DNA from: Tepidibacillus decaturensis
Lineage (GTDB): Bacteria; Bacillota; Bacilli; Tepidibacillales; Tepidibacillaceae
Length of the DNA: 32,538 nucleotides
Reading direction: 5' to 3'
Assembly (NCBI RefSeq): GCF_001561915.1
Contig: NZ_LSKU01000001.1
Location: forward strand, 2,547,176 to 2,579,713
This document shows, in pieces, positions 14,868 to 27,676 of the stretch (its first letter is position 1; every line of letters begins with the position of its first letter). The position numbers and the translations under genes are program-made. The notes below the pieces were generated by a model. That model did no database searches. It saw only the letters and a list, made by a program, of their open reading frames with translations, and was not told where the DNA came from.

Positions 14868-15263
14868 TTAAATCGTTGCATGGTTCGATTCGACCTTATC
14901 TTCAAAAAGAATCGTCCTTACCGTCTCCCTTAATTCATCAATATCAAACGGTTTGGTAAAATGAGTAATAATTCCATGTTTTTTGGCTTCCTTAATCATA
15001 TCCAGTTCACCATATGCGGTCATCATAATGACGTTCATGCTTTGATCAATCTTTTTGATATGCCTGAGAATTTCTAAACCATCCATTCCAGGAATCTTCA
15101 TGTCTAGCAAAACAATATCAGGAGACTCTTTTTGAACAATTTCTAGTGCCGCTTTACCATTTGCTGCTTGAAACGTTTGATAACCTTCCTTACCAAAAAC
15201 CTCGTACAAAAGCACTCTGATTCCATATTGATCATCCACAATAAGAATCTTTTTGTCTCTCAT
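14868..15263 (-). CDS. spo0F: Sporulation phosphorelay response regulator Spo0F
   Basis: Single receiver domain of about 131 residues that takes phosphate from sporulation kinases and passes it to Spo0B. Acidic pocket Asp10-Asp11, phospho-acceptor Asp54 in [12 protein letters not shown], Thr82 and Lys104 are all present. [11 protein letters not shown] and [10 protein letters not shown] match B. subtilis Spo0F, including residues used for kinase and Spo0B contact. ATG 15263 is chosen with GGGGGAG just upstream. It lies between pyrG and fba as in B. subtilis. A sigma-H-like promoter is upstream. Confidence 0.96.
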
Positions 15264-15323
15264 ATTCTCCCCCCTGTATTTCACCAGATTTTTCCGAATA
15301 TTTACTAAATATCAATCTATATC

Positions 15324-15351
15324 TTTCTCTATAAAGGTTAATTTTTCCTTC
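15324..15351 (-). promoter_or_regulatory. Candidate sigma-H promoter of spo0F
   Basis: Minus strand GAAGGAAAA (15343-15351) fits RNAGGAWWW and AGAGAAA (15324-15330) fits RNNGAAT with one mismatch, 12 bases apart. B. subtilis spo0F has a sigma-H promoter in the same place. Confidence 0.5.
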
Positions 15352-19465: not shown

Positions 19466-19520
19466 ACGATCACCATCCTAGTTATCCTATTCGCTATCAA
19501 ATGGTCTTTTCCTGCTAAGA

Positions 19521-24546: not shown

Positions 24547-24573
24547 CGCGCCTAAGGCGCGTTTTATTATTTT
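24547..24573 (+). terminator. Intrinsic terminator of the tautomerase gene
   Basis: CGCGCC-TAA-GGCGCG followed by TTTTATTATTTT. The kinase gene runs towards it from the other side and stops at its edge, so it may serve both. Confidence 0.85.
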
Positions 24574-25294
24574 AATATTCCTCTACCCTTTGTTTTGGCA
24601 GTGAAATCGTAAAAGTTGTTCCTACTCCTATCTCACTAGTGACCTGAATTTCCCCTTGATTTTCTTTCACAATCCGATAACAGATAGGAAGCCCCAATCC
24701 TGTTCCCTCTTCTTTTGTGGTATAGAATGGTTCAAAAATCTGTTTCAGCTTATCCTTTGGAATCCCCTGGCCATTATCTTCGATACAAATATGGATATGA
24801 TCCAGATCATCCCTGCAATAAATCTTTACCGTTCCCCCTTCTTTAGGTAACGCATCTAGGGCATTTTGAATTATATTAATAAATACTTGTTGAAATTGCT
24901 GTTTGTCAACATAAATTGGATACTTACAATCAAGAGTTTCTACCTGAATCTCATGCCCAAGTAAAAGAGCTTTTGTTTGTAATAATATGATCACATCCTC
25001 CAAAACTTGCTGTACCAACCACTCCTTTTTAGCTACAGGACGGTTTTGAGCAAGATGTAAAAAATCGTTTACCAATTGATTCACTCGATCTAATTCAGCG
25101 ACAATGATATTCTCCCACTGTTTTAAACTTTCGCTTTCTTTGGCAGATAACTGTATAAATCCTCGTACAGCAGTTAACGGATTGCGAATCTCATGAGCCA
25201 ATCCAGCAGCCAATTGACCAATCACTGATAGGCCTTCCATCCTTTTTTTCATATCTTCTTGTTGGTTTTTATATTGTTGTTTATCAAGAGCCAA
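24572..25294 (-). CDS. Histidine kinase catalytic part, sporulation-kinase-like
   Basis: HisKA and HATPase_c domains only: H box GLAHEIRNPLTAVRGFIQL, N box QNALDA, G1 DNGQGIP, F box FEPFYTTKEEG and G2 TGLGLP. The H-box region resembles the KinA-KinE group that feeds Spo0F. As a separate frame it has no sensor. It overlaps the GGDEF-like frame by 46 bases in the -1 frame. Its in-frame residues ALDKQQYKNQQEDMKKRMEG look like the helix that joins a sensor to a kinase, so the two are probably one 534-residue protein broken at an A7 run (25296-25302). Alternatively, translation starts at ATG 25252, which overlaps the upstream stop as ATGA. Confidence 0.85.
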   Translation of the reverse strand: MALDKQQYKNQQEDMKKRMEGLSVIGQLAAGLAHEIRNPLTAVRGFIQLSAKESESLKQWENIIVAELDRVNQLVNDFLHLAQNRPVAKKEWLVQQVLEDVIILLQTKALLLGHEIQVETLDCKYPIYVDKQQFQQVFINIIQNALDALPKEGGTVKIYCRDDLDHIHICIEDNGQGIPKDKLKQIFEPFYTTKEEGTGLGLPICYRIVKENQGEIQVTSEIGVGTTFTISLPKQRVEEY

Positions 25295-26175
25295 TTTTTT
25301 TGTGCAACCCAGACCAATTTCTCGGGTTCTGTTGCCTCCTCAGGATAAGAAGCCGTTGCAATCGAATATTTTAGCGGCATCGCTTCTGTATGACTAAATG
25401 AAATCTCCTGTAAAATCATTTCAATTTGTTGATATATGTCTTTTAGATCTCCATCGACGCCTATAACGAAACAATCGCCCTCATAACGGGAAAGTAAGGT
25501 CTGCTTAGGAAGGAGATTCCGCAATTCATTGGCTAATAACTTCAGAAATTGATCTCCCTCTTCCTCGCCATGCAAAAGATTGATTCTTTTAAAATCATTA
25601 AAATCGATAAAAATAATATGATAAGCGGTCGGTTTATTCTGCCAAACATGATGTAATTGATGTTGAAACCCCTTAAAATTATAGAGCCCTGTTAAATAAT
25701 CCTGGTGAGATTGACTTTCGCTTTGTCGGTAAATCCGAACAAAATAATAGGCAAAATAGGAAATGAAAAAAATGACAGTTACATCATAAAGCGTAATCAT
25801 CAAATCTTTTAAGGTTAAGTTCGTAAATAGAATTTCGATAAAAGCGTGAATAAGCGAATAGAATAAGGTGGTAAGTAATAAGACTTTTCGAGAGTTAATT
25901 TCGGTTGCTAAATAAATGACCACAGAATAATACAAGACATGAACAAATTGGGATACATCCAAAAAATGAATCATTCCGATATCTAAGACTAGAAAAGCAA
26001 GGATATAGTTGTTTGAAAGGTGATGGCGAAAAATTTTTAGGTTAAAAGTAAAAAGATTAAGTAATCCAAGAAGAATAAGAAGCCATAACAATTGTAATTG
26101 GAAACCAAGAAGGAGGGCGTTAATCATTCCGGTCATGATTGAAAACATGACAATAAACCAGCGAAAATTTCCCAT
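25249..26175 (-). CDS. Six-TM protein with degenerate GGDEF domain, kinase sensor part
   Basis: 308 residues in this frame. About six hydrophobic helices fill residues 5-147, then a GGDEF-like domain begins DYLTGLYN (159-166). The signature is RYEGDCF (230-236) in place of RYGGDEF, so both the second Gly and the catalytic Glu are changed and cyclase activity is unlikely. The frame ends VAQKNWLLINNNIKTNKKI, which is not domain-like; in the -1 frame it continues into the histidine kinase. ATG 26175 has GGGGGG six bases upstream. Six TM helices before a HisKA domain recall KinB. The promoter is sigma-H type with a Spo0A box. Confidence 0.8.
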   Translation of the reverse strand: MGNFRWFIVMFSIMTGMINALLLGFQLQLLWLLILLGLLNLFTFNLKIFRHHLSNNYILAFLVLDIGMIHFLDVSQFVHVLYYSVVIYLATEINSRKVLLLTTLFYSLIHAFIEILFTNLTLKDLMITLYDVTVIFFISYFAYYFVRIYRQSESQSHQDYLTGLYNFKGFQHQLHHVWQNKPTAYHIIFIDFNDFKRINLLHGEEEGDQFLKLLANELRNLLPKQTLLSRYEGDCFVIGVDGDLKDIYQQIEMILQEISFSHTEAMPLKYSIATASYPEEATEPEKLVWVAQKNWLLINNNIKTNKKI

Positions 26176-26192
26176 GGATTACCCCCCTATTC

Positions 26193-26228
26193 TCTCCAGA
26201 CTATCGTTTCTCTCTAGACTATCGTTCA
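26193..26228. repeat. Two tandem 18-bp repeats in the kinase leader
   Basis: TCTCCAGACTATCGTTTC (26193) is followed directly by TCTCTAGACTATCGTTCA (26211), with 16 of 18 bases alike. They fall between the sigma-H promoter and the ribosome site, so they are in the leader RNA. Confidence 0.6.
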
Positions 26229-26236
26229 ATATATTT

Positions 26237-26263
26237 ATTCGACAAAATTTACTAATTTCCTTC
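26237..26263 (-). promoter_or_regulatory. Sigma-H promoter with overlapping Spo0A box
   Basis: Minus strand GAAGGAAAT (26255-26263), 11 bases, GTCGAAT (26237-26243) match the sigma-H consensus RNAGGAWWW-N11/12-RNNGAAT at every fixed base. TTTGTCGAA (26238-26246), a perfect 0A box, overlaps the -10. The arrangement predicts expression at sporulation onset and control by Spo0A. Confidence 0.7.
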
Positions 26264-26294: not shown

Positions 26295-26324
26295 AAAAAA
26301 CCTACTAGAATTTTTTCTAGTAGG
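26295..26324 (-). terminator. Intrinsic terminator of the ClC gene
   Basis: CCTACTAGAA / TTCTAGTAGG with a four-base loop (26301-26324), then TTTTTT on the minus strand, six bases after the stop. Confidence 0.9.
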
Positions 26325-26329
26325 AAACT

Positions 26330-27676
26330 TTAATTGTCTTTTTCTTTCTGATTATGAAGAAGAACATGCATTTTATTACTTAATCTTAATTTTTGAATTT
26401 GTCGAATTTCACAATTGATATCTGTGTCGATTGAAGGTGATTTAGACATCGAAAGAATTTGACTTGGATATACACTACGATGGCCAACCACAAGATAGCT
26501 TATAACACTTACGATCGAAGCATAGGTGGCAACTTTTACGCCAAATAATTCCATGGCCATTATAATCGCCGCTAATGGTGTATTGGCACTTGCAGCCAAA
26601 AATGAAACCATCCCTATCGCTGAATACATAGCTAAATCACCATGGATAAGCTGCGCCCATGCATTTCCTAAAGTAGACCCTATATAGAAAACAGGAGTTA
26701 ATATTCCTCCACTTCCACCTGAGCCTAACGTTACAGATGTTGTGAAAATCTTAATAAAAAAAGAAAGTGAATCTACCTTATGCCCTGCTAAGGCCTGATC
26801 AATCACATAGGTTCCTAGTCCAATATAGTCCTTGCTATGGGTTAATAAGACGATAAATATCAAAATAAAGCCACCAATGAATCCTTTTAGAGGTTTATAG
26901 ATTTTAAGGGAATACTGAAAATATGCCTCAATGATGTGTAAAGCTTTGATTAACAATAAAGAGATTAATCCAATTAGAATACCGAACAAAATAAGATAGA
27001 AAAACATTGATATTTCGCTTTTCGCTGGAACTTGTATGGCATATTTAAAATGCTTTACTCCCAAGTATTCATTGATATGAAAGCTGACATAAGCAGAAAT
27101 TAAAGAGGGTAATAGAACACGATAAGAAAATTTACCTATAAATAAAACCTCTGCTGCAAAAATAGCCCCTGCAATCGGAGTGCCAAAAACCCCTGCAAAT
27201 CCAGCACTAATTCCACATATTACAAATCTTCTCCGATCATCTTCGTTAAAGCGAAAAAGGTCAGAAAAGGCTGAAGCAATTCCTGCCCCAATTTGGGCAC
27301 TTGGGCCTTCTTTCCCAGCAGACCCACCAGATATAAGGGTGACTAATGTAGCAAAAACCTTAATCGGTACAACTTTTACATCGATCTTGCCATTTTTTTT
27401 ATGAATGGATTCAATTACTTTTTCTGTTCCATGACCTGCTGCATCTGGTGCAAATCGTAATACCATCCAACTACTTAAAAAGAATGCAATCGGCATAAAA
27501 AGATAATAATAAGGCCATTCAGCTGCCTTTTCCGTACCATAAGCAAGCGTATTTAAAAATAAAGCAGTCACTCCTCCTACCACGGTTCCTACAAAGATAG
27601 ATAAAAAAATCCATTTGATTGTGCTCAATAGTAGGATGGATTCCTCCAGAACCTCCTGATTGATCTCTTTTTTCAT
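26330..27676 (-). CDS. ClC family chloride channel or H+/Cl- antiporter
   Basis: 448 residues with ten or more membrane helices. ClC motifs are present: GGSAGKEGPSAQIG with the gating Glu in GKEGP (121-125), and GSGGSGGILTPVFYIG. The first selectivity segment reads AGHGTEKVI instead of the common GSGIP, so anion preference is open. The gating Glu suggests proton-coupled exchange. No CBS domains follow. ATG 27676 has GGAGG ten bases upstream; the frame is open to 27727 but without a site. Confidence 0.9.
   Translation of the reverse strand: MKKEINQEVLEESILLLSTIKWIFLSIFVGTVVGGVTALFLNTLAYGTEKAAEWPYYYLFMPIAFFLSSWMVLRFAPDAAGHGTEKVIESIHKKNGKIDVKVVPIKVFATLVTLISGGSAGKEGPSAQIGAGIASAFSDLFRFNEDDRRRFVICGISAGFAGVFGTPIAGAIFAAEVLFIGKFSYRVLLPSLISAYVSFHINEYLGVKHFKYAIQVPAKSEISMFFYLILFGILIGLISLLLIKALHIIEAYFQYSLKIYKPLKGFIGGFILIFIVLLTHSKDYIGLGTYVIDQALAGHKVDSLSFFIKIFTTSVTLGSGGSGGILTPVFYIGSTLGNAWAQLIHGDLAMYSAIGMVSFLAASANTPLAAIIMAMELFGVKVATYASIVSVISYLVVGHRSVYPSQILSMSKSPSIDTDINCEIRQIQKLRLSNKMHVLLHNQKEKDN

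Follow-up and report, generated by a model that had tools for sequence, protein, structure and literature searches.

The motif at positions 26237 to 26263 on the minus strand of the window, meaning the whole 32,538-nucleotide stretch of the Tepidibacillus decaturensis genome analyzed here, is probably (at roughly 75%) the promoter from which sigma-H transcribes the gene of a membrane-bound orphan sporulation kinase, whose phosphoryl acceptor is most likely Spo0F and whose family appears to be under shared Spo0A/sigma-H control. A sporulation kinase under sigma-H is ordinary in kind; what is unusual is the input domain and the strength of the conserved control region, and the caveat is the integrity of the copy in the window. 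Variable sensor parts and a lack of conserved gene neighborhoods make sporulation kinases hard to recognize (PMC6136694). The present family, in several families of Bacilli, combines a recurring neighborhood with a conserved Spo0A/sigma-H control region and an input domain that is both uniform and unusual.

In the mechanism proposed here, transcription of the kinase gene would be started by sigma-H as sporulation begins. The product would combine five to six membrane helices, a GGDEF domain that is no longer catalytic and retains a nucleotide pocket, and a HisKA-HATPase core like that of KinA and KinB; the kinase activity would be set by whatever the pseudo-GGDEF domain binds, most plausibly GTP, and the phosphoryl group would be passed to Spo0F. 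Positive feedback by Spo0A~P would be added through a Spo0A box that most relatives have about 17 nt before the sigma-H -35 element; in the lineage of the window genome this putative box coincides with the -10 element.

The Sigma-H Promoter

The features of the window that bear on the promoter are as follows.

26237..26263, minus strand: GAAGGAAAT-N11-GTCGAAT, the sigma-H promoter ahead of the kinase gene, an exact motif that is also found at the syntenic gene of G001
26301..26324, minus strand: intrinsic terminator of the ClC channel gene (z -3.45)
26190..26226, minus strand: a tandem pair of 18-bp repeats (94% matches), downstream of the sigma-H promoter and ahead of the kinase start codon
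19489-19515: another exact sigma-H match, 23 nt upstream of a gene for a LapA-domain protein

An initial sequence-only reading had held that the motif fits sigma-H at all fixed positions, and this is correct, coordinates included. The pattern searched was RNAGGAWWW-N11-RNNGAAT, and a site was counted as a promoter when the spacer was N11 or N12 and the distance to a start codon was plausible; the kinase ATG lies 61 nt downstream of the exact match, at such a distance. The pattern occurs twice in the window against 0.18 expected from dinucleotide shuffles; the second occurrence, that at 19489-19515, has no counterpart before the LapA-like gene of G001. Genome-wide pattern searches returned 42 exact matches versus 14 for the reversed control, and these precede spo0A, ftsA, dnaG, an Hpf/YvyD-like gene, a gene for a CtpB-like protease, and a Noc/ParB-like gene (all names after spo0A being our reading of the protein sequences). 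Several genes of this set are sigma-H targets in B. subtilis. The match at spo0A in the window genome reads GAAGGAAAA-N11-GTCGAAT and is closely preceded by TTCGACA, a 0A box in reverse orientation. The region upstream of dnaG (G000:C1:734101-734426) contains a cluster of two TTTTGTCGAA boxes and two sigma-H sites.

The intrinsic terminator sits between the upstream ClC gene and the kinase promoter and isolates the latter. In G001, a genome of the same GTDB family but a different genus, the syntenic kinase gene is preceded by ATAGGAAAA-N11-GTCGAAT, the only exact match in 16 kb of G001, while the alignment of the two intergenic regions scored 40 versus a shuffled maximum of 56, i.e., nothing above chance, with the motif alone in common. 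This conservation amid unalignable flanks is the strongest single piece of sequence evidence for a real promoter; together with the genome-wide enrichment and the presence of the same motif at spo0A, it supports the promoter assignment.

The Kinase Family and Its Neighborhood

Searched with a family profile, 398 genomes of the class yielded 37 relatives (G001 counted in), each a single open reading frame with the domain order TM-GGDEF-HisKA-HATPase, in seven GTDB families (f1, f6, f17, f30, f31, f39, and f50); no full-length match was found in three of the five genomes of the window's own GTDB family. The G001 protein is 39% identical to that of the window over the sensor half and 57% over the kinase half, and the two pair in a kinase-domain tree (99/93), in which the main family, the window kinase, and that of G001 stand apart from a Paenibacillus-type outgroup and from the paralogous kinases of the genome (98/94). 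The placement of L070, a member on a very long branch, is unsure. The best PDB match by sequence is the sporulation kinase KinB (3d36, 5.6e-41). No NCBIfam equivalog scored above its cut-off, and the KinD and AtoS models matched below cut-off through the catalytic core only; a search of genome contigs with the GGDEF half as query returned other GGDEF proteins only.

The window and G001 share a pbpG/speE/speB neighborhood. Among the loci viewed at 12-16 kb, four lie near ywhD and pbpG, and often near speE/speB, and L146 is beside ywhD only (neighbor names again being our reading of the sequences). The neighbors of the window kinase are genes for ClC and a PBP and a ywhB-like gene, with no response regulator or other two-component gene adjoining, so that the kinase is an orphan; a yycFG-like pair occurs a few genes away in L142, L143, and L146 and is not adjacent. 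Spo0A is found in the kinase-bearing genomes, but, because it is found in 317 of the 398 genomes of the class anyway, this co-occurrence says little. No GGDEF sporulation kinase was found described in the open-licence literature, and the family appears to be a little-noticed one that is spread across many spore-formers.

The Predicted Spo0A Box

Two perfect boxes are present in the window.

26238..26246, minus strand: predicted Spo0A box TTTGTCGAA with core TGTCGAA, a perfect match overlapping the sigma-H -10 element
26398..26406, plus strand: second perfect TTTGTCGAA, inside the ClC (chloride-channel) gene and in the opposite orientation

The perfect 0A box that had been noticed over the -10 element is thus present. 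An upstream TGTCGAA core is taken as the mark of a Spo0A target (PMC3485338); such a core lies upstream of the window kinase, where it coincides with the -10 element, and is a separate element in relatives. Two occurrences of TTTGTCGAA in the window against 0.55 expected mean that the box by itself is not significant there, and the function of the second, about 150 bp from the first and absent from G001, is doubtful. Enrichment of TTTTGTCGAA in its own genome was considered as support for a Spo0A site and rejected, as its 21 genome-wide occurrences compare with 24 for the reversed control.

The relatives present a different geometry. The typical upstream region reads TCgaaaTTTGAtAg-TTTTGTCGAA, then, about 17 nt on, GaAGGAaattt, followed by a TGGAA -10-like element, whereas in the window and in G001 AGGA lies upstream and GTCGAAT serves as both -10 element and box. 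Among 38 upstream regions, TTWTGTCGAA occurs in 28 (0.05 in shuffles) and a 0A box followed by AGGAWW in 25 (0.03 in shuffles), neither count being phylogenetically independent; a perfect TGTCGAA is absent upstream in about nine of the 38 family members. Exact sigma-H matches, found in eight of 38 against 0.23, are rarer than 0A boxes because many of the -10 elements read TGGAAG or TGGAAA. Half-boxes spaced by 10 bp suggest tandem Spo0A binding.

The reading that survives best beside our own, at a little under even odds, accepts sigma-H control as real and regards TTTGTCGAA as a -10 element only (an extended TGTMGAAT) to which Spo0A does not bind. Six of the 42 sigma-H sites of the window genome end in TGTCGAAT and four in TGTAGAAT; since TTTTGTCGAA is in addition not enriched, the overlap at 26238-26246 may be a -10 element alone, and within the window genome the candidate box is indistinguishable from the local -10 preference for TGTCGAAT. 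The departure of the window geometry from that of the relatives points the same way. Against this stand the 25 relatives in which the box is separate from, and upstream of, a sigma-H-like promoter, and which make it likely that Spo0A control of the family is old. The predicted Spo0A control therefore holds up in its conserved placement upstream of many relatives and is confounded with the sigma-H -10 preference in the window genome, so that the evidence for it comes from comparison with relatives rather than from the window genome. Were Spo0A to bind at the window position, we infer that it would more likely act as a repressor than as an activator.

In two members from f17, L082 and L083, the open frame is shorter than in the rest (486 and 463 aa, respectively) and no 0A box lies upstream; their sensors are possibly shortened. 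In the Paenibacillus-type loci L087-L097, a conserved TTAATCGACAACATCAGC...TATAAT upstream of the kinase start resembles, in sequence, a Spo0A-activated sigma-A promoter.

Two Halves and a Frame Break

The window kinase gene consists of the following parts.

25249..26175, minus strand: first half of the kinase, with five to six TM segments and the pseudo-GGDEF domain (EGDCF)
25468..25488, minus strand: RYEGDCF, the degenerate GGDEF motif
25295..25301, minus strand: A7 run (T7 on the plus strand), site of the -1 frame break
25249..25252, minus strand: ATGA overlap, in which the TGA stop of the GGDEF frame (25251-25249) lies over an ATG in the kinase frame
24572..25294, minus strand: second half, HisKA and HATPase_c, with the H-box HEIRNPLTAVRGFIQL starting at 25195 and TAGFQL

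Six membrane segments had been predicted, which is approximately right, as five hydrophobic stretches of the sensor half are clear and a sixth is weak. An N-terminal PAS domain is frequent in phosphorelay kinases, though not universal, and a Pfam scan of the kinase found none. In a published table, PAS is also missing from KinB and KinD (PMC6136694).

The kinase frame is -1 relative to the GGDEF frame, and the break, which the initial sequence-only reading had missed, falls at A7. The relatives run through in one frame, whereas the window copy is split, and as sequenced it would therefore yield no single-polypeptide kinase. The break probably reflects a sequencing error or a recent mutation. 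The conserved window genes that were scanned for domains gave full-length matches, so errors are not rampant. Programmed frameshifting at A7 was considered as a family feature and rejected, since the gene is fused in the relatives and G001 lacks an A-run at this place.

Because two open frames are present as sequenced, the gene is possibly dead in this strain. A decaying pseudogene, in which a real A7 frameshift has left a relic promoter and relic domains and no kinase, is on the whole unlikely and would be compatible with the explanation given for the family. The intact relatives, the three other phosphorelay-type kinases of the genome, which could substitute, and the absence of a full-length match from three of the five GTDB-family genomes speak for decay; but apart from the break the kinase half is an intact stretch of 240 codons with complete domains, the promoter is perfect, the ATGA stop-start overlap could allow coupled translation, and sequencing errors, too, commonly take the form of a single-base indel in a homopolymer. 

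It is a good deal less probable that the split is functional, with a membrane-bound pseudo-GGDEF protein and a soluble kinase core made either by coupling at ATGA or by -1 slippage on A AAA AAT. The overlap lies exactly at the end of the GGDEF frame, where translational coupling could produce the kinase core separately, and the heptamer is slippery-like; however, no good Shine-Dalgarno sequence precedes the ATG, A AAA AAT is a weak slippery site in bacteria, the G001 gene is fused and without the A-run, and the split is not conserved in the family. 

The Presumed Phosphorelay Partner

The promoter-bearing kinase is best explained as a phosphorelay kinase, and the window itself contains its presumed acceptor.

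14868..15284, minus strand: spo0F, presumed phosphoryl acceptor (Response_reg, 111 bits)
15324..15351, minus strand: sigma-H-like promoter of spo0F, GAAGGAAAA-N12-AGAGAAA, with one -10 mismatch

The Response_reg match agrees with the earlier placement of the Spo0F gene at 14868. The window genome also has spo0A and a Spo0B-like candidate (an SPOB_a match in a 216-aa frame), so that Spo0F, Spo0B-like, and Spo0A genes are all present. We mapped the positions that Davidson et al. (PMC6136694) give for specificity to H+7, +8, +11, +12, +14, and +15. At these positions the window kinase has TAGFQL, identical to KinA and KinE, a stronger likeness than the resemblance of its H box to KinA-KinE that had been claimed; the main family has TSGFQI, as does KinC, and the KinB chain 3d36 shows HEIRNPLTAARGFIQL. 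The type T-x-G-[FL]-Q-[LIV] is kept in all 51 loci examined. Within the window genome, phosphorelay-type residues occur in four of the 16 kinases examined and not in the other 12, and each of the three besides the window kinase has an upstream sigma-H-like site or 0A box. Two of these three, L150 and L151 (C1:1107800-1111200 and C1:2724000-2727000), show upstream either CTTGTCGAAG as a 0A box or GAAGGATTT-N12-GTCGAAT as a sigma-H-like site.

The promoter, the specificity residues, the phosphorelay genes, and the Spo0A box upstream of many relatives thus partly support the proposal of a probable sporulation kinase, with the frame broken at A7 counting against it, and phosphotransfer to Spo0F would follow from this assignment. 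It seems improbable that the product acts instead in stationary phase, under sigma-H, on a target other than Spo0F (in biofilm, motility, or envelope): orphan status by itself leaves the partner unfixed, but the identity of the specificity residues with those of KinA and KinE, and in the main family with those of KinC, argues for Spo0F, as does their type across every locus examined. A meaningless chance match of the promoter motif can be dismissed as very improbable, since, although the consensus is short and degenerate and about a third of the genome matches (14 of 42) could be chance, the motif is kept at the same place in G001 and is placed between a terminator and a start codon.

The Pseudo-GGDEF Input Domain

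The GGDEF domain had been called degenerate, and rightly so, as GG[DE]EF is absent from the whole family, with DGDQF in most members and EGDCF in the window and G001; the window domain thus lacks the signature of an active diguanylate cyclase. No RxxD I-site is visible in the family alignment. Residues D191, N199, D208, and D234 are nevertheless kept in the window and in 37, 37, 35, and 37 of the 37 relatives, respectively; they correspond to PleD D327, N335, D344, and the third motif residue. These PleD-type residues bind metal and guanine in active cyclases. The retention of the metal and guanine ligands despite the non-canonical motif, likewise missed by the initial reading, suggests that the domain is a GTP-sensing pseudo-enzyme, although replacement of the first glycine of the motif could weaken phosphate binding.

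There is precedent for inactive GGDEF domains that gate a partner domain and bind GTP (PMC9061725), and sporulation is triggered by a drop in GTP, the mechanism being given as not known (PMC3084206). Taken with the kept ligands, these precedents make it reasonable to propose, speculatively and with the odds well against it, that the family is a direct GTP gauge, in which GTP on the dead GGDEF domain would hold the kinase off and the fall of GTP in starvation would release phosphorylation of Spo0F. If this were true, it would provide, in these lineages, a direct molecular link for the classical GTP-drop trigger of sporulation; if the domain binds GTP at all, the family would allow a direct test of the route of the GTP pool to the phosphorelay.

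Comparison with Known Systems

The Paenibacillus-type TM-GGDEF-HisKA kinases (L087-L097) have the domain order and the TAGFQL residues of the window kinase. They differ in their motif, RYAGDRF, and in the D191/N199/D208 pocket, which is largely lost; no perfect forward 0A box was found near their starts, with one distant TGGCGAA in L093.

The B. subtilis kinases KinA-KinE are, like the family, orphans with sigma-H and Spo0A signals (the latter predicted in the family) in a setting where Spo0F, Spo0B-like, and Spo0A proteins are present, and they share their specificity residues with the window (KinA and KinE) or with the main family (KinC). Their inputs are PAS or other known sensors, unlike the membrane bundle and pseudo-GGDEF domain of the family, known here from sequence, so that the description of the latter as an unusual input for the phosphorelay is apt. 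KinB, with six TM segments, DHp, and CA, has a multi-TM N-terminus without an extracellular domain (PMC6011975). In this N-terminus it resembles the family, for which 3d36 is the closest solved structure; it differs in its specificity residues, TVGFQL, and has no described GGDEF domain.

The closest parallels to the input domain are CC3396, PdeB, RbdA, and RmcA, in which an enzymatically inactive GGDEF domain keeps its GTP pocket and confers GTP-gated allostery (PMC9061725). As in the family, catalysis is lost or absent and the pocket residues are kept, although the family motifs (DGDQF/EGDCF) have other residues in place of the first glycine and the catalytic Glu. Whereas those proteins gate EAL phosphodiesterases, the partner of the pseudo-GGDEF domain in the present family is a histidine kinase.
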